64,000 bases of DNA. Origin: Chthonomonadaceae bacterium (GTDB lineage: Bacteria; Armatimonadota; Fimbriimonadia; Fimbriimonadales; Fimbriimonadaceae). The stretch spans positions 2,480,001-2,544,000 of the forward strand of contig CP054189.1 in NCBI GenBank assembly GCA_015709495.1, in the 5' to 3' direction. Below, piece after piece: positions 1-55,921 of this stretch. The position numbers and the translations under genes were made by a program. Within the stretch, counting starts at the first letter, position 1. Each line of letters opens with the position of its first letter. The notes below the pieces were generated by a model. The model worked only from the letters and a program-made list of their open reading frames with translations, was not told the DNA's origin and searched no databases.

Positions 1-569
1 GGGGTTCGTACCCTTCCCCACCGCGCGAGCAGCGACTCGTACTCCGCTTGCGAGATGTCGAACGAGCCCATCGACTCCAGATGCGGGTTGGGGATCTGGG
101 CGTCGAACACCTGGAACCCCTGGGAGCGGCAGAGGTGAACGGCCTCGACCAATGCGACCTTGGAAGCATTGGATTCCGCGTGAAACATCGATTCCGCCGA
201 GAAAACAGAGCCGATGGCGAGGCCGAAGAGGCCCCCGACGAGCCGCTCCCCCTGGTAGACCTCGACCGAGTGCGCCCAGCCTTCGACATGCGCTTGCATG
301 TAGGCCCGGATCAATTCCTCCGTGATCCAGTTGTCGGCCTCCCTCAGACACCCTCGCACCACGTCTTCGAACCTACGGTCGGCCGTAACCTCGAACGCCC
401 CGCGACGGAGCACCGCCTTGAGAGTCCTCGAGACCCGCGCGCCTTCGATTGGAAAAAGAGCCCTGCGGTCGGGTTTGTACCAGTTCAACTCACCCGCCGC
501 ATCGCCCATGACGAACGCTCCGCAGAGATAGCCGTACCGCAATTCCCAGGTCGTGAGTTCGGATCGCAT
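1..569 (-). CDS. aat: Leucyl/phenylalanyl-tRNA--protein transferase, 3' end cut by window edge
   Basis: Aat moves Leu or Phe from its tRNA onto N-terminal Arg/Lys of proteins, feeding the N-end rule (ClpS/ClpAP) pathway. Reading from ATG 569 leftward gives about 189 residues with no stop before the edge. It shows the family core NWITEELIRAY, HSVEVYQGERLVGGLFGLAIG, the ESMFH segment with NASKVAL, and the late FDAQIPNPHLESMG motif. Family length is about 200-240 residues, so little is missing. The start lies 6 bases after the stop of the upstream methyltransferase, so the two are probably co-transcribed. Family assignment rests on these motifs and is secure; the C-terminus is not visible. Confidence 0.9.
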   Translation of the reverse strand, partial: MRSELTTWELRYGYLCGAFVMGDAAGELNWYKPDRRALFPIEGARVSRTLKAVLRRGAFEVTADRRFEDVVRGCLREADNWITEELIRAYMQAHVEGWAHSVEVYQGERLVGGLFGLAIGSVFSAESMFHAESNASKVALVEAVHLCRSQGFQVFDAQIPNPHLESMGSFDISQAEYESLLARWGRVRT

Positions 570-575
570 CTTGAC

Positions 576-1292
576 TTAGAACGAACCGCGCTCCCAAAGC
601 ATCGCATGGAACAGCGGCGCGATCGAGAGGTCCGCCATACCGGGGTCGGCCTCAAGCGCTGCGGGGGTGGGGACCGGTTCGACGTATTCCCTCAACAGAA
701 ACCCGCTCCGAAGGAACGCGCCGAAGAACCGCTCCAGCGTCCGATGGTGCTGCATCACGGTGATTCCGCGCCACGACTGGATCCCGCCGGGATACGCGAA
801 GTAGCGGTGAACGGGCCAATGGAGTTTCCTCCCCTCGGAGTCCTTCACCCAACCCGAAGAACAGGTGGAGATCGGAGTCACGTTGCTCACGACGCATCGT
901 CCTCCCGGACGCAACACCCTCGCAATCTCGGCAACCGCTACCTCGAAGCCTTCGATGTCGACGAACGTGACGTAAGAAACGACTTGGTCGAACGCGCCGT
1001 TGGAAAACGGAAGGCGCTCGCCGCGAGACCGGGCTAGGCGGCTGAGGCCCTTTTCTTTCGCTGAGGCAAGCAAGGCCCGGACGGGGTCGATACCCACAAC
1101 GCTTGCCCCGAGTTCGGCGAGCATCTTACCGAATCGCCCCTCACCGCAGCCGACATCGAGGATCACTGCCCTGTTCACGTCGCCACAAAGCCTCAGCATG
1201 ACCTCGTCGAGCAGGTGCGTTCGGTTTGTGTCGCCCTCTTCGACGAACTTCTGCCAGGCGTCCGCGGACTCGATCCAACCTCCCTCTTTCAT
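576..1292 (-). CDS. Class I SAM-dependent methyltransferase
   Basis: A 238-residue protein with the Methyltransf_11 pattern. Motif I ILDVGCGEGRFGKML lies near residues 43-57, an acidic residue after strand 2 (VVGID) follows, then a motif II-like FDQVVSYVTFVDIE and the post-motif VLRPGGRCVVSNV. The second half resembles small-molecule methyltransferases of the UbiE/BioC type; the substrate cannot be read from sequence. ATG 1292 is divergent from the DinB-like gene with only 48 bases between the starts, so both promoters must lie there. It sits directly upstream of aat and probably heads that transcript. Confidence 0.85.
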   Translation of the reverse strand: MKEGGWIESADAWQKFVEEGDTNRTHLLDEVMLRLCGDVNRAVILDVGCGEGRFGKMLAELGASVVGIDPVRALLASAKEKGLSRLARSRGERLPFSNGAFDQVVSYVTFVDIEGFEVAVAEIARVLRPGGRCVVSNVTPISTCSSGWVKDSEGRKLHWPVHRYFAYPGGIQSWRGITVMQHHRTLERFFGAFLRSGFLLREYVEPVPTPAALEADPGMADLSIAPLFHAMLWERGSF

Positions 1293-15189: not shown

Positions 15190-16620
15190 GTGGCGAGCTC
15201 CCAGAACGAACTTGAACTGAACTGCGAACCAAGGATGAAGCGAATTGCTTGGATTACGATAGCGCTCGGCGCGATCGGAGGAGGGCTAGCCTACTTCCAC
15301 TTCGCGCACGTTCCCACTTACCCATCCGGCTCTGTGGTGGGGGATGTCGCTGTGGGGGAACTCACGCCGACTCAGGCAGAGGGCGCTCTTCGCAGCAGGT
15401 GGCTTGAGATCTCCAACAAGGAGCCCACTGCACGCCTGGCTGGGATTCCGGGAAGGACCTTGCAGGCTAGGATCGGCGACCTCGGGATCGAACCCGACTT
15501 TGGGGCAACTCTAGCGCAACTCCAAACCGAGGGCCTCTTCCAGACGTGGTACAGGAAGCTGTTCACTCCCAAATCGAAAGGAGCGCTGCCTTGGGTGTGG
15601 CGACTCGATTCGGCAAAGGCCTCTGCGGTATCGGAAAGGGTCCGTGAGGTTCTGGGCCCGCGCAGCCCAGCCAAGGCGTTTTGGGTCGAGGGCAAGGTCG
15701 AACTCACGCATGAGGTGCCTGACGCCGAAGTCGATTTCGATTCGTGGCTGGCGAGTCTGAACGCAGGTGAGACCTTCTTGGACGAGCCCGTTCTGCCCTT
15801 GCGAACCGGGGCCTTCCATGTTCCTCCGACCGAACTTTCCAAGATCCAAGAGGTGATTGCCGAGTTCGCCACGACCTTCCCTGCCGGCGAACGGTCCCGA
15901 AACACGAACATCCGAATTGCCTCGGAGAAGATCGACGGCGTGGTGTTGATGCCCGGCGAGGAGTTCAGCTTCAACGACTCTGTGGGGCGCCGAACGATCG
16001 AGAACGGGTTCAAGCTTGCGGGCGTGTACCGGAGCGGGCGGCACGACGTTGGGATCGGAGGCGGGATATGCCAAGTAAGCGGAACGCTCTACAACGCCGC
16101 CGTGCTTTCCAACCTCGAAGTCGTCCAAAGGGCCAATCACTCGATGCCGGTTCCCTATTTGTCCGTCGGGCGTGACGCGACCGTCGATTACGGCAAGATC
16201 GATCTTCGATTCCGAAACAACTACGACTTCCCGATTGCGATCAGCAGCACGTTTCAGCCCGGCAAGCTGACGTTTCGAGTTCTCGGCCAGAAGGATCCGT
16301 CGCTCGAAGTAAAGATCGTAACGGCGGGACATCAAAGCTGGGACCGAGGCGTGAAGTATGTACCCGACCCTGCAGTTCCGGCGGGCACGGAGCGGGTGGT
16401 CGAAAAGGGCAGCCGAGGGCATAGTGTCACCACGTACCGCGACGTGTACCGTAACGGCGCTCGAGTCTCGCGAACCGTCTTGAACAGCAGCCGGTACTCG
16501 GGCGGGGTGAAGATCATTGCCAAGAATCCGGCCGATCTGGGCGCCCCGGCGAGCTCGACCGAAACCGAATCCGAGCCAGCCAACGACGCGGCGATTAGCG
16601 GCGGAGTTCAATCAGACTGA
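15190..16620 (+). CDS. VanW-family protein with G5-like C-terminal domain
   Basis: A 476-residue protein with one N-terminal membrane anchor (IAWITIALGAIGGGLAYFHFA). It then has a region like the putative peptidoglycan-binding module found with VanW (SGSVVGDVAVGELTPTQAEGALR), the VanW domain at about 220-370 (LMPGEEFSFNDSVGRRT, GGGICQVSGTLYNAAVLSNLEVVQR), and a G5-like module (about 375-450). The role of VanW is unknown; it is an accessory gene in some vancomycin clusters and is linked to cell wall. GTG 15190 is chosen for GGAGG at 15178-15182; ATG 15235 is the alternative. The last 26 bases overlap the convergent membrane-protein gene. Confidence 0.88.
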   Translation: MASSQNELELNCEPRMKRIAWITIALGAIGGGLAYFHFAHVPTYPSGSVVGDVAVGELTPTQAEGALRSRWLEISNKEPTARLAGIPGRTLQARIGDLGIEPDFGATLAQLQTEGLFQTWYRKLFTPKSKGALPWVWRLDSAKASAVSERVREVLGPRSPAKAFWVEGKVELTHEVPDAEVDFDSWLASLNAGETFLDEPVLPLRTGAFHVPPTELSKIQEVIAEFATTFPAGERSRNTNIRIASEKIDGVVLMPGEEFSFNDSVGRRTIENGFKLAGVYRSGRHDVGIGGGICQVSGTLYNAAVLSNLEVVQRANHSMPVPYLSVGRDATVDYGKIDLRFRNNYDFPIAISSTFQPGKLTFRVLGQKDPSLEVKIVTAGHQSWDRGVKYVPDPAVPAGTERVVEKGSRGHSVTTYRDVYRNGARVSRTVLNSSRYSGGVKIIAKNPADLGAPASSTETESEPANDAAISGGVQSD

Positions 16621-18454
16621 ACTGCGGACCGTCAACCAGTACCGTCCCCAGACTCCGCACGTCCGCGTATCGAGGGAATCCCAAGGCATAGAGGTCTTCA
16701 AAGGCCTCCGGCACCGGCGCGACCACATGCGTAGCTCCGATTTCGTCGATCAGGGCCTGCCGTTCGGCTTCGGACTCTGAGGGTGAGAAGAACCGGACCG
16801 CCCGCGCCCTCCGATCGAGATAGTGGGGCGTCTCGCTCCAGTGGCCGGCGTAGGTGAAGGCGCCCGCGAGTCCGCTGAGAAACGGGTTGAGGTCGGGGAG
16901 GAACGGGGTGTTGTATCGGTCGGGCACGAGGTAGCCGTCCGCGTCGATGCCTGGGTGCGGCACTCCGGGAATCGCAATCACCACCTTCCGTCCCGGGATT
17001 TCCTGGAGGACGTCGAGGATCGACTTCACGTTGGAACTGAGGTAAAGCTGTTGTACGGTCGTGCGCGAGACGTCGGTTCGGACGTAAAGAAGCTCCCTCC
17101 GCAGCCAAAGTGCGCTGCTCGCGCAAACCACAACGATCGCAAGAGCGCCCAAGATGTTGCGAACGCCCTTATCTCGATTTCGGGCCCACGCATAGAATCC
17201 CACCGCCGCAAGGGCAGCCCAAGGCAACGCCAAGCCCATCGAAAGCTTCCTTTGGAAGAGGACCGGCAAGTACGGCAGGGTGAGTCCCACCACCGCCCAC
17301 GAAGCGAAGAGCGCGCGCCACGGACACTTCGAACCCAATACCGCTACCAACCCAAGCGCCAAGGCAAAGACCAGGGACCACGTGAGCCAGCCCATCCAGT
17401 AGCCTCCGCTAGAAGGAGTCGCAAGCGCGAATAGTACGAGGGCGCCGGCGCCGAGCACGCCCAGAGCGATGCCACGCTCTCGCGAGGTTGCCTCTAAATG
17501 ACGCAATCCTACGATCCCCAAGGCGATCAGCGGCAAGAGGCCAAGGACGACAAGTCGAAAGCTCGGAGAAAACGTGTCGGTCGCCGCGCGAGCTTGAAAC
17601 ACGGGGTCGTTTTGCCAGACGTAGACGAACCAACCGGCTGCCGGGACCGCCCCCAATCCGATCACGCCGACCCTGAGGGCCCATGCGCCATGAAGCGTCC
17701 CTGCCCGAAGCGAAGCCAGCGCTAGCCCGACCAACGTTGCGAGCACAATGACCACGTCGTAGCTGTGGATGTTCATGAGCGTCAGCATCGCCACCGCGCC
17801 GACCGCCACGGGTTTCCAACTGTCCTTGGCAAGTACGGCGGACTCAAACACCAGCAGAATCAGGCACAAGCTGGCCGTGAAAAGGCTGTTCGTGAGCATC
17901 GAAGGAAACAGAAACGCCTCGGGCTGCCAAACATCCACGGGCAACCCGCCGCCTGAAATCGCCGCGAGCCAGTCGGAGGACGGGCGCGTGATCGCTTCGC
18001 CGAAGTCATGCCAGACCGAGAAGCCGATCCCAGCGCCAAAAGCCACCAGGCACAAAGCCATTTTGAGGAAGTAAGGTTCGGTCTCCATCCGGCGCAAGAC
18101 GCGATACAGGAGCATCACCAGCGCAAACGAAAGCAGAAACCTCGCGGCCGCGGCCGCAGCCGGGATGCCAATTGCCTTGGCGACCAGCCCCAACAACCAG
18201 AAATAGAGGTGAAGGGTGAGACCAGGCTGAGGGTCGATTGCGAAACGGTTATCGAAAAGGAAATTGCCGTCCATCGCCTGGCGCATCCAAGCGGAGTACA
18301 CCATGTGGTCGTCGGTCGCGAACGGGAAACCGTGAAAGGACGCCCCAGCGGGGGCGCTCAGGACGCCGACACCATACGGCAGGACCGAGAGCAGGCCGGC
18401 GCCAAGGGCAAGCGTCAGCGCGAACCTTCTGGCGGGGACGCGCGATTCAGGCAT
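16595..18454 (-). CDS. Large multi-pass membrane protein, possible GT-C glycosyltransferase
   Basis: A 619-residue protein with roughly a dozen hydrophobic helices and a soluble C-terminal portion of about 180 residues. The first extracytoplasmic loop, HGFPFATDDHMVYSAWMRQA, has paired acidic residues as in GT-C polyprenyl-phosphate glycosyltransferases, and the C-terminal domain (YLVPDRYNTPFLPDLNPFLSG, GATHVVAPVPEAFEDLY) resembles the tail of some of these proteins. No specific family could be fixed, so the enzymatic role is a suggestion. It follows a lipoprotein gene by 27 bases and its 3' end overlaps the VanW-G5 gene. Confidence 0.7.
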   Translation of the reverse strand: MPESRVPARRFALTLALGAGLLSVLPYGVGVLSAPAGASFHGFPFATDDHMVYSAWMRQAMDGNFLFDNRFAIDPQPGLTLHLYFWLLGLVAKAIGIPAAAAAARFLLSFALVMLLYRVLRRMETEPYFLKMALCLVAFGAGIGFSVWHDFGEAITRPSSDWLAAISGGGLPVDVWQPEAFLFPSMLTNSLFTASLCLILLVFESAVLAKDSWKPVAVGAVAMLTLMNIHSYDVVIVLATLVGLALASLRAGTLHGAWALRVGVIGLGAVPAAGWFVYVWQNDPVFQARAATDTFSPSFRLVVLGLLPLIALGIVGLRHLEATSRERGIALGVLGAGALVLFALATPSSGGYWMGWLTWSLVFALALGLVAVLGSKCPWRALFASWAVVGLTLPYLPVLFQRKLSMGLALPWAALAAVGFYAWARNRDKGVRNILGALAIVVVCASSALWLRRELLYVRTDVSRTTVQQLYLSSNVKSILDVLQEIPGRKVVIAIPGVPHPGIDADGYLVPDRYNTPFLPDLNPFLSGLAGAFTYAGHWSETPHYLDRRARAVRFFSPSESEAERQALIDEIGATHVVAPVPEAFEDLYALGFPRYADVRSLGTVLVDGPQFSLIELRR

Positions 18455-20039: not shown

Positions 20040-20399
20040 ATGATTTGGGTCTTGGGGTTCGCGATCGGCGCGGCGGCAGGCGTTTTGAGCGGTCTGTTTG
20101 GGATCGGAGGAGGGGTTCTGATCGTCCCCGGACTGATCTACCTGCTGGGGTTCGGGCAAGCCAAAGCCCAGGGGACTTCCCTCGCCGCACTCGTACTGCC
20201 CGTTGGCCTGCTCGGGCTCATCAACTACTACAAACATGGCCAGGCCGATGTCAAGTTGGGGCTCCTGGTCGCAGTCGGTCTTTTTGGTGGCGCCTATGTG
20301 GGTTCGAAGTTCGCCCTCAACATGGACGAAAGCCTTTTGCGAAGGTCGTTCGCGGTGCTGCTCGTGCTCGTCGCCCTCCAGCTCTTTTTCAAGAAGTGA
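20040..20399 (+). CDS. Half-size TauE/SafE-family membrane permease
   Basis: A 119-residue membrane protein beginning FAIGAAAGVLSGLFGIGGGVLIVPGLIYL, the signature of TauE/SafE (DUF81) sulfite/organosulfur exporters. It has about four helices, half the usual eight-helix protein of 240-300 residues. The fold is an inverted duplication, so a half-size protein would have to dimerise. ATG 20040 matches the conserved start; the long frame extending to 19251 is the antisense of the oxidoreductase gene. It ends 3 bases before the stop of the convergent VanW gene. Confidence 0.85.
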   Translation: MIWVLGFAIGAAAGVLSGLFGIGGGVLIVPGLIYLLGFGQAKAQGTSLAALVLPVGLLGLINYYKHGQADVKLGLLVAVGLFGGAYVGSKFALNMDESLLRRSFAVLLVLVALQLFFKK

Positions 20400-20402
20400 G
20401 AG

Positions 20403-21149
20403 CTACCGACCCTTCGTTTCCAGAATCCGGTGGAACGGAGGATAGCTATCGACGGAAACGAGCTCTTGGCGGCCGTCGATGGTCCGGTAGGTCATGACCT
20501 CATACCCCGGCTTCCCCGAGTTGCGAACGCGGTTCACCGGGCCGCTTCCCTCGATCTTGTATTCACGGGGAGAGACGAACCGAACGATCTCGCTGCTCAG
20601 CAGGACCTTGCGATCGACTTTCTTCGGGCCGATGAGCGAGACCACAAGGCCGCTCCGCTTCATTTCGGCCCGAATCGAGACTCGGAAATCGTAAGGGTTC
20701 TTCAGCTTCAGGTCAATCCCCCCGAACGCCACTGCCGCATCTCTGCCTGGCGGGCAATACCCGGGCGCAAAGCGATGCCGAGAACGCTCGACCACCTCAA
20801 AACCCCCGAGAAGCGCCGCGTTGTAGAGAGTCGTCGAGGTTTGGCACACACCGCCTCCCCAATCGTCGACCAACGCCCCATTGAAGCTCACCGGCGCCTT
20901 CACGTATCCCATGTCTCTCGACCATCCGCCGACGGTCTTGTTGAAGGAGAACTCTCCGTGAGGGTCGATCACTGCGCCGTTGAGAGCCTCGACGGAAAGC
21001 CGCGCGTTGTGCCGCTGCGAGATCGTGCGCCCTTCGAGCGGAGTCTCAAACCGCGCTAGGACGTGGCTTTCCGGGTCTTCGTTGGCTGCGACCAGCGCGC
21101 CGACGCCCACCACAATACCGACGAGCAAGAGCACACCCAGGAGTCTCAT
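20403..21149 (-). CDS. VanW-family protein, short form
   Basis: A 248-residue protein with an N-terminal anchor (LLGVLLLVGIVVGVGALVA) and a VanW domain: DPHGEFSFNKTVGG, GGGVCQTSTTLYNAALLGGFEVVERSRH and the GRDAAVAFGGIDLKLKNPYDF end. It has no G5-like module, unlike the relative at 15190-16620. Its ATG overlaps the stop of the alpha-2-macroglobulin gene by 4 bases, so the two are translated together. The pairing suggests both act on the cell wall or outer envelope. Confidence 0.88.
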   Translation of the reverse strand: MRLLGVLLLVGIVVGVGALVAANEDPESHVLARFETPLEGRTISQRHNARLSVEALNGAVIDPHGEFSFNKTVGGWSRDMGYVKAPVSFNGALVDDWGGGVCQTSTTLYNAALLGGFEVVERSRHRFAPGYCPPGRDAAVAFGGIDLKLKNPYDFRVSIRAEMKRSGLVVSLIGPKKVDRKVLLSSEIVRFVSPREYKIEGSGPVNRVRNSGKPGYEVMTYRTIDGRQELVSVDSYPPFHRILETKGR

Positions 21150-24100
21150 TCCGGCCTTACCTCCAAGGTCGCCGCCGAAGTCGACGAACGAACGTTCGGC
21201 TCGTACATATTGAAGAGCACCGCCGGCAGAGCGCTCGCTTTCCCGGGGTTTTCGGCACGCAACGTAAACTGGAAACTTCGCTCCCGGCTCGCCATCGACT
21301 TGAGGAAGAACACGATCTTGTCGTCAAACACGACGTGCTTGCTCCAGGGGTAGTACCACTCTTCGTAGATTCCGATTTCCTCGCGCTCCATGATGCGGAA
21401 GTTGCTCGGGATGGGCGCTTCGACCATCACAAACTGCCTCGCTGTGTCGCTCGTCACGTCGATCAAGCACCGGATCAGGTCCCCGCGCTTGACGGACGTA
21501 ACGTCGGCCTTCGAGGGAACCAGACGGAGCGTCCCGTCCTCCATCCGCGCAACTTCGAGCTTGGCGAACCGGCGTGAGATTTTCAGGCCCGGGTCCGTGG
21601 TGGATGGCGGAAGCGTATCCCCCCCAACGTACTGCGTCAGCTTTGCGGAGAAGAAGCCCGCGCCCGGCGTCTCCTTCTTGAACTCGATTCGGTTGTCGCC
21701 TTGGATGAGGTCCTTCAGGGGGACTCGGATTCTGAGATTCGGGTCGGCAGGGCTCGAAGCCGCAAGATCGAGGACTCGCACTTCCTTCCCGTTGATCGAC
21801 ACCGTCAAGGCGCCTTGCAGGCCGACTCCGCCCGTTCCTCGCAGATATTGGCAAAGCGCGACCACGATGTACGCCGTATCCCTGGTGCTGGCCCAGGTCG
21901 AACCCCGCCGTTGGATCATCAGGTAATGAACAACCTTGGGAATCTCGGGGTCGGTCGGCCGAATCGTCGCCAGGGCGAGTAGGCATCGCGCCGTAGTCTC
22001 GAAGCCCCAATACTCCTCCTCCCACGACACGAGGTTCTCTCCTCGCTGCGCCGCCGCCAGCATCTTGCCCAGAGCCGCGTCCCGCTTCGATGTGAACTCG
22101 GACCCCAAGGCATGATAGGCGAGCGAGACGTTCGCAAGTTCGAGGGGCGTGAGTTGTTCGAGCCCAAGCGCGAACAGTACAGACTGAGCCCTTTCCCTCT
22201 GCCCATACAGCGCCAACACGTAGGCTGTATAGGACCTCTTCTTGCGGTCATATTGAACGAACGCGGAGTCCGGGCCTGAAGACCACGGCTGACTTGCCTT
22301 CTCTGAAAGCCACTTCACGGCGGGGCCGGGATCGAGGTTCTCTGAGGGGTAGCCGGCCTTCTTAGCCAAATCGAGCCCTTCGAGCACAAGCGCCGTCATG
22401 AACTCGTCGGGATCGCCGTATTCCCACCAGCCCCATGCGGCGTTGTAGATTCGCATTTTACGAAGTCGCGAATATCCTTCGGCGACCATCGAAGGGATTT
22501 CTGCCTGCCGGCGGATGGGTGGGAGCGAGAGCTTTTTGAGCGTGTCAGCGACAACGACCGTGGGCAAAAACCGGCTCATCGTCTGTTCGACGCAACCGTA
22601 CGGAAAGCCGATAAGTTCGTCGAGCGACTGGACGACCGCGCTTCCGACCGTCGGAGAAAGCTCGATTTCGAGGGCCCCGGCCGAAGGATCCGCCCCGGGG
22701 CGCACCGAGAACACTTCCGAGGAAGTCCCCTCCATCAGCCCCGATTTCCACTGGACCACCGCCCGCCCATAAACTCGGATCGGGACCGACTTTTGCATTC
22801 CGTCGCTTTCCGAGCCTGTCCACGCCTTCGCCACGAAAGTGGCCGTGCCAGCATCGGGGAATTCAGCGCTCCATTCGAGGGAAACCGTCGCCCCGGCTTT
22901 GACGTGGACCGCGCGTCTCTTTTCGCCACGAATCGTAGCGCCGGCCGCCTCCAACTCCACTTGGACCGAAGTATCGACCGCGGAATCGTTGGTCACCATC
23001 GCAAGGAGCCTCTGCGTATCGCGCTGTACGTAATACGCCCGCGTGAGGACCCTGAGCATGAGCGGCTTGGAAGCTCGGACCTTGAACGTCGAACTGCCCA
23101 CCTGAGTCGACGCCGTGATTGCGGTCGCGGTGGCGCGCCACGTCGTGAGGTTATCGGGCAGGATGAAGGAAATCTGCGCCCGCCCGCTCGAATCGGTCAC
23201 GACCGAAGGCGCCCAGAACGCCGTGTCTTCGAACTTCGATCGAATCTGAATGTCCGAGGGCGCCTTGTCCCCGCCATCCAGGTAGAGGTCCGCAAACGAG
23301 TAGTCCGTAGAGACAGAGTTGTACCTCTTGGGATAAAAGGTGCCTACCACGTTGGTTCGATCTGGTGCAAGGGCGTAGATCGCTTCATCGACCACGCCGA
23401 AGGCGACTTCGGCGGAGACGGGCCGCCCGGATTCGTCGCGCGTCGAGACTTCGTAGGTCGCGCGGTCTCCGGGTCGATACGTCGATTTGTCGGCTTCAAT
23501 CTCCACTTGAAGACGGTTGACCCCAAGGTCGACGCCGAGCCTCCTGGAGGACTCCATGTACTTCCGATCTCGAACGTAACTGACCGAAACAAATGCGTTA
23601 GGAAGGCATTCCTTCGTGACCGGAATCTCGACCCGCGTAACGCCAGACCGCAACTCGACCACGCGGCTCGAATACACGCGGTCGGCTTCGACGGTTACCC
23701 AAGCGAACCCGCCGGGCAGGTCGGTTTGAATCACCGCGACCGCTTTCTCCCCGATACTGTACTGCTTCTTGTCGAGCGTCAACCGAACCCCCGTCGCCCG
23801 GCGATCGATCCAATCTCCTGCGCCATCGTACGCATACACGTAGGTCGATGCCAGGATCTCGTTGTTTTTCGAGTCGAGGGTCGCCGCCCGAACGCGGATG
23901 TATCCCCCTCGCCGGGCTTGAAAGCTCGCCCGAGCGGACCCGTCCTCTCCCGTTGTGACGACGTTCGAGTCGATTTCCTCGAAAACCTCGCCTGTACGGG
24001 TGTAGTTGGAATACGCCGCGGTCAGCCGCACCCGCCGCCCCGCCAGAGGCTCATACGTCTTGTGCGCGAACGCCCGGACCTCGAACTCGATCGGCTTACC

Positions 24101-25885
24101 GACATCGGCCACCCAGCGATCCGACGTAACGTCGAGCCCGAACTCCCCGCGAGCGACCACGACCGACCCTTCGCCGTCAAAGTACTTGTCGCCGTCGGTA
24201 ACGCTCACATACGCCGTGAACTTGCTGTCAGTGTCGTCGACCCAAGCGTCATCGAAGCGACTGTCGAAGTCGATCAGAGCCTCGCCGCGCTCGTTGGTGG
24301 TCGCAACGTACTCGCCGACCCATTCGCCACCGTAATACCCTTCGCCACCGTACATCTCCTCGTATTCGAGGTAATCCTCTTCGTCTTCAGCGGACACAAA
24401 CCCCCACTGGGGGCTTCGAGAGACGTTGGCCACGACCTTCGCCCCCACGACCGGCGCGCCGAAATAGTATTCCGCCTTGACCACAAACCGAACTCGTTCG
24501 CCTCGGACGAAACTCGGTTTGGAGGGCGTGACGGTGATCGAGTATTCGGGCTTGCGATAGGCCGCTATCGTCACCGGGAAAACGTCCTCGAACTCGCCGT
24601 AATTGACTTCGACGAGGTATTGCCCAGGAGGAGCTTCGCCGTTGACCGAGAACTCGCCGCCGAAGCTGCCGAAGGTGTTGAGCGCGATCTCCTCCGATTG
24701 AATGGGAACGCGCTCGGGGTCGAGAATGCGTACGAGGACCCGGCCGCTCGGCGGGGCGGCGTAGCTCACGCCTTCGAGAGCGCGGAGCGTGCCCCTGAAC
24801 TGAATCCTGTCGCCTGGACGATAAATGGGGCGGTCCGTTTGAAGAAAGAGCCGGTATTGCTCGTCGCTGCCCCCGTACGAGTAAATATCGATGAAGGCGT
24901 CCGAGCCGTCAAAGCTGGCACGTACAAGGCGGTCGTTTCGCGAATCTCCCGAGTTCGAGCTAAGCAGTCCTTCGGAACTCGTGGTTCCCAGCGACAGCGG
25001 CTTGCCATTCTTCCCCGCCTCGATCAATGCGCCCGAGATCGGCTTCCCGGTAGCAAGGTCAGTTACGAAGATCGATAGCTGACTCGAAGCCGTTTTCGTC
25101 ACGAGGGCGATTTGCGAGACGGAAATCCATGTGCCGGCTTCGAGCCCCTTGGCTTGGACTTCCACCCAGTAAAGGCCCTTGGGGAGATCGGGAAGCGCAA
25201 AGGGCTGGCGGAACACGCCCTCTGCGTCGCGATCGGTAGCCGTGCGGACGAATCTTTGCACTTCCCGGCCCATCGTGGACGGCGCCTTCCTCGCGCGCCA
25301 CGAGGACGGCGAGATAGACGACAGCCCCGAGTAGAGCGATTTGGCAGCAAACAGCTTGTCGGGGTCGATGCGATAGATCAGGAATTCGATTTGGTCGGTA
25401 TCGATGAACCCATGAACGTCCACCGACGCCTTTGCTCCAGGCAGAAACACGTGCTGCCCGAGGTAAGCATCTAGGAACGGTGGGTTCGGCTGAAGCTCGA
25501 ACACCTGTTCCTCCGCTCGGCCCTCCTCGATAGCGATGGTCTGATTTAGGGAGTGCGCTTTGGCGCTGGTGCGAGTCTGGTAGAAGCCTGCGCGGACGTG
25601 CGAGAAGTTCACGCGGCCCGTGGCGTCGGTCGTCCGCACGTAGGACTGGGGCCGATCCTCAGGAGGCATGAGCTCCAACTCTTCCCATCCAGGGCTTTCG
25701 ACCGGCTCCAGATAGACGGCGACGTTGGGAAGCGGCCTGCCGTTTTCGGCCATGACGAGTTGGGCCGAGAAGCTGCCCATCGGCACCTCGTAGGTGATCC
25801 CTTGGCCCAGCAGAAAGACACCGAGGGTCGCGCCCACGATGAGGCTGGCTACACTGCCCTGTGCGATCCATTTCCCGATTTTCAT
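21146..25885 (-). CDS. Bacterial alpha-2-macroglobulin with thioester motif
   Basis: A 1579-residue protein with one N-terminal hydrophobic segment serving as anchor or signal. MG/Ig-like domains follow (for example FLQTDRPIYRPGDRIQFRG), then the bait-type region, the VVDEAIYAL and FWAPSVVTDSSGRAQISF A2M core blocks, the thioester motif GCVEQ with Cys at residue 1098, and an alpha-toroid TED domain. Such proteins trap proteases covalently after bait cleavage and guard the periplasm. The classic partner is PBP1C (pbpC); here the partners are a membrane protein (ATGA overlap upstream) and VanW (ATGA overlap downstream). No lipobox is seen, unlike E. coli YfhM. Confidence 0.93.
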   Translation of the reverse strand: MKIGKWIAQGSVASLIVGATLGVFLLGQGITYEVPMGSFSAQLVMAENGRPLPNVAVYLEPVESPGWEELELMPPEDRPQSYVRTTDATGRVNFSHVRAGFYQTRTSAKAHSLNQTIAIEEGRAEEQVFELQPNPPFLDAYLGQHVFLPGAKASVDVHGFIDTDQIEFLIYRIDPDKLFAAKSLYSGLSSISPSSWRARKAPSTMGREVQRFVRTATDRDAEGVFRQPFALPDLPKGLYWVEVQAKGLEAGTWISVSQIALVTKTASSQLSIFVTDLATGKPISGALIEAGKNGKPLSLGTTSSEGLLSSNSGDSRNDRLVRASFDGSDAFIDIYSYGGSDEQYRLFLQTDRPIYRPGDRIQFRGTLRALEGVSYAAPPSGRVLVRILDPERVPIQSEEIALNTFGSFGGEFSVNGEAPPGQYLVEVNYGEFEDVFPVTIAAYRKPEYSITVTPSKPSFVRGERVRFVVKAEYYFGAPVVGAKVVANVSRSPQWGFVSAEDEEDYLEYEEMYGGEGYYGGEWVGEYVATTNERGEALIDFDSRFDDAWVDDTDSKFTAYVSVTDGDKYFDGEGSVVVARGEFGLDVTSDRWVADVGKPIEFEVRAFAHKTYEPLAGRRVRLTAAYSNYTRTGEVFEEIDSNVVTTGEDGSARASFQARRGGYIRVRAATLDSKNNEILASTYVYAYDGAGDWIDRRATGVRLTLDKKQYSIGEKAVAVIQTDLPGGFAWVTVEADRVYSSRVVELRSGVTRVEIPVTKECLPNAFVSVSYVRDRKYMESSRRLGVDLGVNRLQVEIEADKSTYRPGDRATYEVSTRDESGRPVSAEVAFGVVDEAIYALAPDRTNVVGTFYPKRYNSVSTDYSFADLYLDGGDKAPSDIQIRSKFEDTAFWAPSVVTDSSGRAQISFILPDNLTTWRATATAITASTQVGSSTFKVRASKPLMLRVLTRAYYVQRDTQRLLAMVTNDSAVDTSVQVELEAAGATIRGEKRRAVHVKAGATVSLEWSAEFPDAGTATFVAKAWTGSESDGMQKSVPIRVYGRAVVQWKSGLMEGTSSEVFSVRPGADPSAGALEIELSPTVGSAVVQSLDELIGFPYGCVEQTMSRFLPTVVVADTLKKLSLPPIRRQAEIPSMVAEGYSRLRKMRIYNAAWGWWEYGDPDEFMTALVLEGLDLAKKAGYPSENLDPGPAVKWLSEKASQPWSSGPDSAFVQYDRKKRSYTAYVLALYGQRERAQSVLFALGLEQLTPLELANVSLAYHALGSEFTSKRDAALGKMLAAAQRGENLVSWEEEYWGFETTARCLLALATIRPTDPEIPKVVHYLMIQRRGSTWASTRDTAYIVVALCQYLRGTGGVGLQGALTVSINGKEVRVLDLAASSPADPNLRIRVPLKDLIQGDNRIEFKKETPGAGFFSAKLTQYVGGDTLPPSTTDPGLKISRRFAKLEVARMEDGTLRLVPSKADVTSVKRGDLIRCLIDVTSDTARQFVMVEAPIPSNFRIMEREEIGIYEEWYYPWSKHVVFDDKIVFFLKSMASRERSFQFTLRAENPGKASALPAVLFNMYEPNVRSSTSAATLEVRPE

Positions 25886-27330
25886 TGTGCTACCTGTTCA
25901 CCGACCGAATCCCCGGCTCGGCGCGACACGATCGCAAGCAGGATCGCGAGCGCCGCCACCACCGGACCGAGGACATAAAGGGCGCGGGCCTTTTCATCGC
26001 GCGAGAGTTCGAGAATGGGCGAAATCCAACCGTAAGAAGCGGTCATTCCGAGGCCCAAACCCAGCGGCCAAGCGATTGCCAGCCCCGTGCCGCGCGCGTT
26101 GACACCCGCAAGCGCCCCGCCAAGACCCATCCCCGCAAGCATTCCGACATAACCCTTCGCCGCCAGGGTCGAGGCTGAGACGATCACCGCGCCGGCCAGC
26201 AGTCCGACCCACAGGAAGGCTCCGGCGCCGCTGGCAAAGCCTCTCCGGCCCTTCTCCTTGTACCATTCGAGCGCAAGGACGATCAGCATCGCTCCTGCGA
26301 GGATCCCGATGAGAGAGTAGTGTTGCCCGATGTCGAGCGCGCGAGAAGCCGCAAGGTGATTCTCTCGGAACACCCGGTAGGCGACGATTCCCGCTACGGG
26401 CGCGAGAGTGCTCAACGCTCGCGGGTGGCGGTAGGCGAGCAGCACGCACGCCCCGACGGCCAAACCCAGCGCAACGCCGTATCCGCGCAGAATCCCGAAA
26501 GCCAAGGTCGCGCCCGCCACCCATAGGATCGTGGACAACCAATACCCCAGAGAGCTTTCCGATTCAGAACGAGGCACAACCCATAAGCTTGCCAGCGCTA
26601 AAGCCACGCCGCCCAAGCCGACGACCGCGAACTGCTCGACGAGCAAGTACTTCATGCCCAGGAGCACGAATCCACCCGCGAAGAAAGCGACAAACGCAAG
26701 GCCCCGGATCCAGTCGGGCAGCCGCTCGCCGAGCTTCTTGCCGGGTAGCGCCCATACGATCAGCGCCGCATACGAGGCCGATACGCCGACGATCGCCCCC
26801 GAATGGGAGGGGTTTCCACCGAAGCCGATCCTGCCGAGAACTTCCAGCGGGACGAGCACGCAAGAGGCGGCCGCGGCACGGATCGCCCAAGGGCTCGCGA
26901 GCATCCAGCCGCCCGCCACAGCCCCCATGCAATACCCCAGTTGAAGGTTGAGCAAGGTGGGCGGTTTCGCAAGAGCGAGGAGCGCGACCGCAGCCGCGCC
27001 GAACGCGATCGGCGCAGCCTTAGCATGGGCCGACTGGCCGGGGGTTCGCCCCAAAACCGCCACAAGTAGTGAAGCGGCAAGGCCGAGCAGAAGTCCATGA
27101 ACCGCCGCGCCCGCGTACGCCAACGAGCCGCCCCAAGTGAGGTGGGCCGCATAAGCCGACGCTCCGAGCGCCACGCTGCCCACGATGCCAGGGACCAACG
27201 AGCTTGCGGCGGGCTTTTGCTCTTCTTCAACCGTGCTCTCGCGCAAGAGCCATGCTGCGAGCGCCCCTCCTAAACCGACCCAAGGCAATGCTTCCGTGAC
27301 CACCCTATTTCCCCCTCGACTCTGGGCCAT
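25882..27330 (-). CDS. Multi-pass membrane protein of unknown function
   Basis: A 482-residue, very hydrophobic protein, rich in Ala/Gly/Leu, with about 14 predicted helices and short loops. No transporter or enzyme motif was found. It is the first gene of a coupled set: its TGA overlaps the alpha-2-macroglobulin ATG by 4 bases. ATG 27330 is the only start considered; a GTG about nine codons later is possible. The promoter must lie in the 107 bases shared with divergent ilvC. Confidence 0.75.
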   Translation of the reverse strand: MAQSRGGNRVVTEALPWVGLGGALAAWLLRESTVEEEQKPAASSLVPGIVGSVALGASAYAAHLTWGGSLAYAGAAVHGLLLGLAASLLVAVLGRTPGQSAHAKAAPIAFGAAAVALLALAKPPTLLNLQLGYCMGAVAGGWMLASPWAIRAAAASCVLVPLEVLGRIGFGGNPSHSGAIVGVSASYAALIVWALPGKKLGERLPDWIRGLAFVAFFAGGFVLLGMKYLLVEQFAVVGLGGVALALASLWVVPRSESESSLGYWLSTILWVAGATLAFGILRGYGVALGLAVGACVLLAYRHPRALSTLAPVAGIVAYRVFRENHLAASRALDIGQHYSLIGILAGAMLIVLALEWYKEKGRRGFASGAGAFLWVGLLAGAVIVSASTLAAKGYVGMLAGMGLGGALAGVNARGTGLAIAWPLGLGLGMTASYGWISPILELSRDEKARALYVLGPVVAALAILLAIVSRRAGDSVGEQVAQ

Positions 27331-54724: not shown

Positions 54725-55921
54725 TCAGCGCCCTCGGAATCCGCGGCTCAGCTTGCGAGCGCGGTTCTTTACGTAAAGGGTGCCCAGTCCCAGCCCGCCA
54801 GCAATCAACGCGAATCCGATGGTTTCGACCGATTGCCCGGCAATGCGAAGCTGTTGCCTCACCTCGCGCGACGCAATCAAAGGCAGCTCCTTGCTCCACC
54901 CCGAGCCGTTGGTGATCTTGACCGTGCCGACAGACTGATCCTTTCCAATCGGCGCATCAATGGTCTGCGGCACACTGGACGCAACGAGATCGGCAAGAGA
55001 AGCCGCTTTGGGTACGGGGGCCTTCACGGATTCCGAATAGACCAGCCCGATCTGCTCTTCAACGCCTCCTTGGACCCTTACGCTTGCCGCGGCATCCCCC
55101 TTCTTCACCACCTCCTGAAGTTCGAAGTTGGCGAAGGCCCATTCGATCATGGCTTGGTGATCGCCATACCAATCCTCACTCCCCAGCACTACGGTCAGAA
55201 ACTGGAGCCCCTCGCGTGTCGCGCTGCCCACAAAGCACTGCCCAGCAGGCCGGGTGAACCCGGTCTTGATCCCCTCGGAAGGCGGATCGCTGCGCAGTGT
55301 CCGGTTCCTGCTGATAAGTACGGTGTCTTCTAAGTTCAGCGTCCGGCTAACTTCGTACTTCGTCGTTCCTGCCGCGACCCGAAACTCATCGCGTTTCCAT
55401 GCCTCCCTCGCGATCCTGATGAGGTCGCGCGCGGTGGTGTAGTGGAGGTCGTCGTGAAGCCCATGAGGGTTGATGAAGTGGGTGTTCGTACATCCCAGCG
55501 CCTTCGCCTTCTCGTTCATCAACTCGGCAAACTTCTCGACGGAACCGGAAACGTGCCGCGCGATCGCATACGCTCCGTCGTTGGCGCTCCGCACCATCAG
55601 GGCGAAGAGCAGATCGTGGGCCGTCACGGCTTCAAAGGGCTTGAGATGCAAGCTCGAACCGGTCACAGTCTCGACGTCTTCCGGTGCGAAGATCACCTCC
55701 GTCGGCCGGGTTCGCTCAAGCAGCAACAGGGCCGTCATGATCTTGGTCGTGCTTGCGGGAAACCTCTTGGCATCTGCGTCCTTTTCAAAGACCGAGATGC
55801 CCGTGCTCGCCTCGACGATGATCGCGCTCTTAGCGCCCAATTCCAAGGGCGGCAGATCGGCGGCAACGTCCATCGCGGAACCTGCGGCCAAAAGGAGGAC
55901 GGTCGATCGGAAATGGGTCAT
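54725..55921 (-). CDS. dacF: D-alanyl-D-alanine carboxypeptidase (PBP5/DacF family)
   Basis: Trims the terminal D-Ala of peptidoglycan pentapeptides, limiting cross-linking. Catalytic motifs: STTK (Ser57, Lys60), SAN (112-114) and KTG (219-221), with NPHGLHDDLHYTTARDL in between. A signal peptide precedes, a PBP5-like beta domain follows, and the C-terminus has one membrane helix (ETIGFALIAGGLGLGTLYV) with a basic end. The length of 398 is typical. It lies between scpB and rluB, an arrangement known in Gram-positive bacteria also. Confidence 0.93.
   Translation of the reverse strand: MTHFRSTVLLLAAGSAMDVAADLPPLELGAKSAIIVEASTGISVFEKDADAKRFPASTTKIMTALLLLERTRPTEVIFAPEDVETVTGSSLHLKPFEAVTAHDLLFALMVRSANDGAYAIARHVSGSVEKFAELMNEKAKALGCTNTHFINPHGLHDDLHYTTARDLIRIAREAWKRDEFRVAAGTTKYEVSRTLNLEDTVLISRNRTLRSDPPSEGIKTGFTRPAGQCFVGSATREGLQFLTVVLGSEDWYGDHQAMIEWAFANFELQEVVKKGDAAASVRVQGGVEEQIGLVYSESVKAPVPKAASLADLVASSVPQTIDAPIGKDQSVGTVKITNGSGWSKELPLIASREVRQQLRIAGQSVETIGFALIAGGLGLGTLYVKNRARKLSRGFRGR

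Follow-up and report, generated by a model that had tools for sequence, protein, structure and literature searches.

An alpha-2-macroglobulin encoded with a VanW protein and a dedicated membrane protein in Armatimonadota: an apparent counterpart of the YfhM-PBP1C pairing

In E. coli and other bacteria, the type I alpha-2-macroglobulin (A2M) is encoded with the peptidoglycan synthase PBP1C, and a joint function in defence and repair has been proposed for the two proteins (PMC4498604, PMC5764988). The locus of Sinorhizobium meliloti, which was inspected here, is organised in this way, pbpC adjoining the A2M gene. So far, the idea that A2Ms are connected to wall repair rests mainly on this one gene neighbour. 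Other associations exist. In the Mag operon of Pseudomonas aeruginosa, a membrane partner is needed for the stability of the A2M (PMC5764988). In Deinococcota, the A2M gene comes after a gene encoding DUF1175, a family of papain-like proteins that, according to its description, is inactive but binds peptidoglycan (PMC10318531). Three records of Deinococcota plasmids display the order DUF1175, A2M and small hypothetical gene; two of the three show 4-nt overlaps.

The VanW proteins constitute a second family of L,D-transpeptidases. LdtCd4 and LdtCd5 of Clostridioides difficile, which carry a VanW domain, are L,D-transpeptidases, and some other members of the family display no detectable activity (PMC12729407, PMC11986978). 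On this point, the initial annotation of the present locus, which credited VanW with no known activity, is outdated.

The locus belongs to a window of 64 kb (the whole stretch of DNA that was analysed) taken from a complete genome of 2.9 Mb. It includes three genes, given below in their order of transcription together with their junctions and predicted functional codons.

25882..27330, minus strand: polytopic membrane gene, 482 aa, first of the three genes, without Pfam or PDB match
25882..25885, minus strand: A2M/membrane-gene junction, ATGA, 4 nt, A2M start over membrane gene stop
21146..25885, minus strand: type I A2M gene, 1579 aa, no lipobox, membrane segment at the N terminus
22583..22597, minus strand: thioester motif GCVEQ, codons for residues 1097-1101 of A2M
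21146..21149, minus strand: VanW/A2M junction, ATGA, 4 nt, VanW start over A2M stop, with GGAGG upstream within A2M
20403..21149, minus strand: VanW gene, 248 aa, N-terminal helix, VanW domain at residues 45-172, C-terminal G5-like domain at about residues 173-248
20844..20846, minus strand: codon of the predicted catalytic Cys102 of VanW
20775..20777, minus strand: codon of the predicted catalytic His125 of VanW

These data confirm the coordinates and the two 4-nt junctions by which, according to the initial annotation, an A2M bearing GCVEQ overlaps a membrane gene upstream and a VanW gene downstream. The GGAGG site that precedes the VanW start is located in the last codons of the A2M gene. 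As the unit is flanked on one side by the divergent ilvC and on the other side by a plus-strand ORF with its end at 20399, whose sequence looks like that of a TauE/SafE permease, it consists of exactly three genes. The search for promoters and terminators at the unit gave no signal above chance.

The association extends across the phylum. Among 201 genomes of Armatimonadota, relatives of the A2M of the window were found in 156 and VanW proteins in 186. VanW directly adjoins A2M in 29 of the 30 best A2M loci, the remaining one stopping at a contig edge. With the addition of 80 A2M neighbourhoods, 20 of them with wider flanks, the tally reached 61 membrane-A2M-VanW triads, 7 membrane-A2M pairs devoid of VanW and 8 A2M-VanW pairs devoid of a recognised membrane gene; 19 other A2M genes have neither partner and 16 loci are cut by contig ends on one or both sides. 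The 61 complete triads are spread over 20 family-level groups, so that the stable coupling of A2M and VanW claimed initially is phylum-wide and not a peculiarity of one strain. Furthermore, among the membrane-A2M pairs whose flanks are sequenced far enough, 61 of 68 have VanW beside A2M. As the genomes carry about two VanW genes each and yet 76 A2M loci include one, 61 of them together with the membrane gene, this pairing is far above chance. In 55 of the 76 linked loci, the A2M stop and the VanW gene overlap by exactly 4 nt, and a Shine-Dalgarno-like site is present at 37 of these 55 junctions, versus 19% of background positions in A2M. The genes that flank the triads vary between groups. The A2Ms of the triads form a single clade (support 0.98), whose sister group mostly has VanW and no recognised membrane gene. 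The pairwise distances of the three proteins are correlated over 50 triads (Mantel rho 0.54-0.68), part of this correlation being due to common ancestry. Globally, it is nearly certain that the membrane gene, A2M and VanW make up one functional unit. Nevertheless, neither an adjacent VanW nor the thioester is strictly required, as indicated by the 7 membrane-A2M pairs without VanW and by the absence of GCxEQ from 7 of the 70 VanW-linked A2Ms (it is retained in 63).

Other arrangements of A2M genes also occur in the phylum. At five loci, another type of A2M adjoins genes encoding AMMECR1-like and thioredoxin-like (TlpA-type) proteins, without VanW. At eight loci of one genus, a TatC-like gene lies beside A2M in place of VanW.

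The initial annotation had recognised that the membrane gene is present and overlapping, and understated its role. Indeed, a profile search of 28 genomes detected its family in all five genomes carrying the triad, each time at the A2M locus; the 23 genomes without a triad-type A2M gave no match, barring two near E 1e-4. The family, seen solely beside A2M, is a dedicated third member of the A2M-VanW unit. The linked subtype of VanW (scores above 300 bits) has the same distribution (5/5 versus 0/23), the 23 genomes still retaining their other VanW. The searches for the identity of the membrane protein (Pfam with 40 members, PDB profiles and Foldseek) returned nothing usable, the Foldseek query being a poor model built from five sequences (pLDDT 54.8).

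This joint presence and absence bears on the possibility that the unit ensures a housekeeping quality control of the own secreted proteases of the cell or of folding stress, and does not counter an external attack, VanW being co-transcribed only because it responds to the same envelope-stress signal. The hosts, judged by the titles of their records, are mostly free-living environmental bacteria, and 90% of the sampled VanW genomes (an unsystematic figure) have no obvious animal host context, which would fit such a function. However, overlapping start and stop codons, together with co-presence, suggest a matched production of the three proteins that goes beyond shared regulation, and we regard the housekeeping explanation as very unlikely.

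The genome carries one A2M gene and two VanW genes. The second VanW gene (15190-16620, plus strand) encodes a protein whose N-terminal region is long and whose G5 domain is genuine (PF07501, E 5e-11); it is of the VanW type retained by almost all genomes of the phylum. The initial annotation was right about its existence and its G5 domain; its location 5 kb from the A2M unit has no evident meaning, since in the triad-bearing relatives that were checked its counterpart is found on other contigs or far from the unit. Beside it, a 619-aa polytopic protein without Pfam match is encoded at 16595-18454 of the window (minus strand).

Outside the phylum, one genome scan and a plasmid collection were used. 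In the scan, A2M-VanW pairs are confined to records named Armatimonadota, Chthonomonadaceae or Fimbriimonadaceae, and none of the VanW loci of Bacillota has an A2M gene beside it. Of 20 genomes in which the scanned locus has no triad, just three possess any A2M. One of them, submitted under the name Peptococcaceae bacterium SCADC1_2_3, has all three genes of the triad at another place of its assembly (locus L224). The L224 contig has a tetranucleotide profile matching that of another contig of the assembly and includes acetyl-CoA synthase genes, and its A2M nests among Armatimonadota sequences in the A2M tree; this triad results either from a gene transfer or from a mislabelled or mixed genome. 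Directly after VanW and on the same strand, L224 harbours an ORF (164-949, minus strand) whose sequence looks like that of an undecaprenyl-diphosphatase (UppP/BacA).

The A2M of the window displays the MG2, bMG3, A2M_BRD, A2M, TED_complement and bMG10 domains, all above the Pfam cut-offs. It agrees with bacterial type I A2Ms in the two characters considered, i.e. the order of the MG, bait-region and A2M-TED domains and the CxEQ motif (GCVEQ, residue 1097). From these domains and its thioester, the protein is likely to act as a protease trap.

The linked VanW matches PF04294 with an E value of 4e-42 and a score of 143 bits (curated cut-off 27). Its structure model (pLDDT 92.7) comprises an N-terminal helix, the VanW domain, in which Cys102 begins a helix, and a C-terminal domain identified as G5 by both profile and fold comparison. 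According to the latter, the G5 fold is also present in the resuscitation-promoting factor RpfB. Besides G5, the fold searches of the VanW domain (Foldseek, VIA-align) mainly retrieved one type of ribosomal protein chain (Z 5-6), taken as a chance match. The PG4 domain of LdtCd4 and LdtCd5 is absent, only a helix preceding the VanW domain, and PG4 is probably a trait of these two proteins rather than of the whole VanW family. The profile search detected no YkuD transpeptidase in the genome, so that the two VanW proteins are its only known candidate L,D-transpeptidases. A Peptidase_S11 D,D-carboxypeptidase, the sole one of the genome, is encoded at 54725-55921 of the window (minus strand); such an enzyme might provide the tetrapeptides that an L,D-transpeptidase uses as donors.

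Cys102 and His125 are invariant in an alignment of 48 diverse linked VanW sequences, and the protein likely performs a transpeptidase step. Alternatively, it might have no cross-linking activity and serve as an accessory protein, wall-binding or glycopeptide-type, by which A2M is positioned or protected, with G5 as its working part. The lack of detectable activity of some VanW proteins (PMC12729407) counts in favour of such a binder and against a cross-linker; the G5 fold of the linked VanW would agree with it, as would the DUF1175 neighbour of the Deinococcota A2M, described as inactive yet peptidoglycan-binding (PMC10318531). Nevertheless, a mere binder would not need the invariant Cys and His, and we consider this possibility unlikely.

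The gene order, overlaps, conservation and co-presence observed, together with the conserved residues, lead us to favour, with modest confidence, a protease trap anchored in the membrane and coupled to an enzyme making 3-3 peptidoglycan cross-links, in parallel to YfhM-PBP1C; it is from these observations that we infer activity, trapping, contact and repair. The three genes would form one envelope-protection unit. The N-terminal segment would hold A2M at the inner membrane, where the protein would serve as a suicide trap. Once cut in the bait region by a protease, either foreign or misdirected, it would bind this protease through the GCVEQ thioester. VanW would be tethered by its N-terminal helix, its G5 domain probably holding peptidoglycan, and would use Cys102 and His125 to make 3-3 cross-links from tetrapeptides already present in the wall. 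As these tetrapeptides pre-exist, VanW would need no lipid II to strengthen or repair the wall at that same site. For the polytopic protein, we propose a role as dedicated partner in the membrane, which would most likely anchor or stabilise A2M, in the manner of MagB with MagD, and might possibly work as a sensor or transporter; the stabilisation of an A2M by MagB provides a precedent for the proposed role. By analogy with the PBP1C pairing, we hypothesise that the unit functions in wall repair.

Two other readings retain a membrane-bound or wall-bound A2M. In the first one, which seems rather improbable, the unit would be a complement-like damage sensor at the membrane: cleavage of the bait would reshape A2M and thereby switch on VanW, held by the polytopic protein. 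Wall repair would then begin exactly at the site of protease entry. In the second one, VanW would be an L,D-transpeptidase attaching proteins, perhaps A2M itself, to peptidoglycan, the unit displaying a wall-bound trap and not repairing the wall. ErfK-type enzymes attach Braun lipoprotein to peptidoglycan. The conserved Cys and His of VanW are compatible with such an attachment, and protein anchoring is known for L,D-transpeptidases (PMC12729407, PMC12274547). However, A2M has its own membrane segment. Furthermore, a C-terminal Lys or Arg, found in 46 of the 70 A2Ms and considered as an attachment signal, was rejected as such: the ATGA overlap makes the last codon end in A, which can explain the bias, and the A2M of the window ends in Glu. 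We consider attachment quite unlikely.

Like LdtCd4 and LdtCd5, the linked VanW is a membrane-attached protein whose VanW domain has conserved Cys and His residues; the C. difficile enzymes carry PG4 peptidoglycan-binding domains, whereas the linked VanW, a short protein coupled to A2M, has G5 at its C terminus in place of PG4. The unit gives a phylum-wide biological setting to the VanW proteins, for which an activity has been known only since 2024. The Mag operon resembles the triad in that a single operon encodes an A2M (MagD, type II) and its dedicated inner-membrane partner (MagB). However, MagD is devoid of thioester and belongs to a six-gene operon in which no VanW has been described, whereas the thioester is present here and the genes are three. 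Moreover, only one transmembrane helix is predicted for MagB, whereas the protein of the triad is polytopic and points to an uncharacterised family of dedicated membrane proteins.

The closest parallel is the YfhM (ECAM)-PBP1C pair. In both cases, a thioester A2M is encoded with a peptidoglycan cross-linking enzyme (a predicted one here), and both are envelope proteins at the inner membrane. Nevertheless, the partner of YfhM is a class A PBP, with glycosyltransferase and D,D-transpeptidase activities, whereas here it belongs to the unrelated VanW family; YfhM is a lipoprotein, whereas the A2M of the triad has an N-terminal membrane segment and no lipobox; and no polytopic partner accompanies YfhM-PBP1C, whereas a polytopic membrane gene precedes A2M in the triad. 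BiPBP_C, the PBP1C-type C-terminal domain, is absent from the genome and exceeds the cut-off in just 3 of the 201 genomes of the phylum. A single class A PBP of the Transgly family is encoded in the genome, about 0.7 Mb from the A2M unit. No class A PBP gene lies beside A2M at any A2M locus examined in the phylum, and no pbpC-type gene is coupled to an A2M at any of them. As the initial annotation had suggested, VanW occupies the position held by PBP1C in Proteobacteria, and the triad seems to be an independent equivalent of the association known from E. coli. Since an unrelated lineage associates the same trap with a different family that includes cross-linkers, the connection of A2Ms with wall repair gains independent support, and the shared need appears to be cross-linking and not PBP1C itself.

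The trio of Deinococcota offers a third case. There, A2M follows a peptidoglycan-related protein, a small gene comes next and, as in the triad, 4-nt overlaps are found (in two of the three records); however, this trio includes neither VanW nor a polytopic gene, and its peptidoglycan-related member is the papain-like DUF1175, described as inactive. In three lineages, A2M is therefore encoded beside three unrelated peptidoglycan-related proteins, from which we infer a general pattern.
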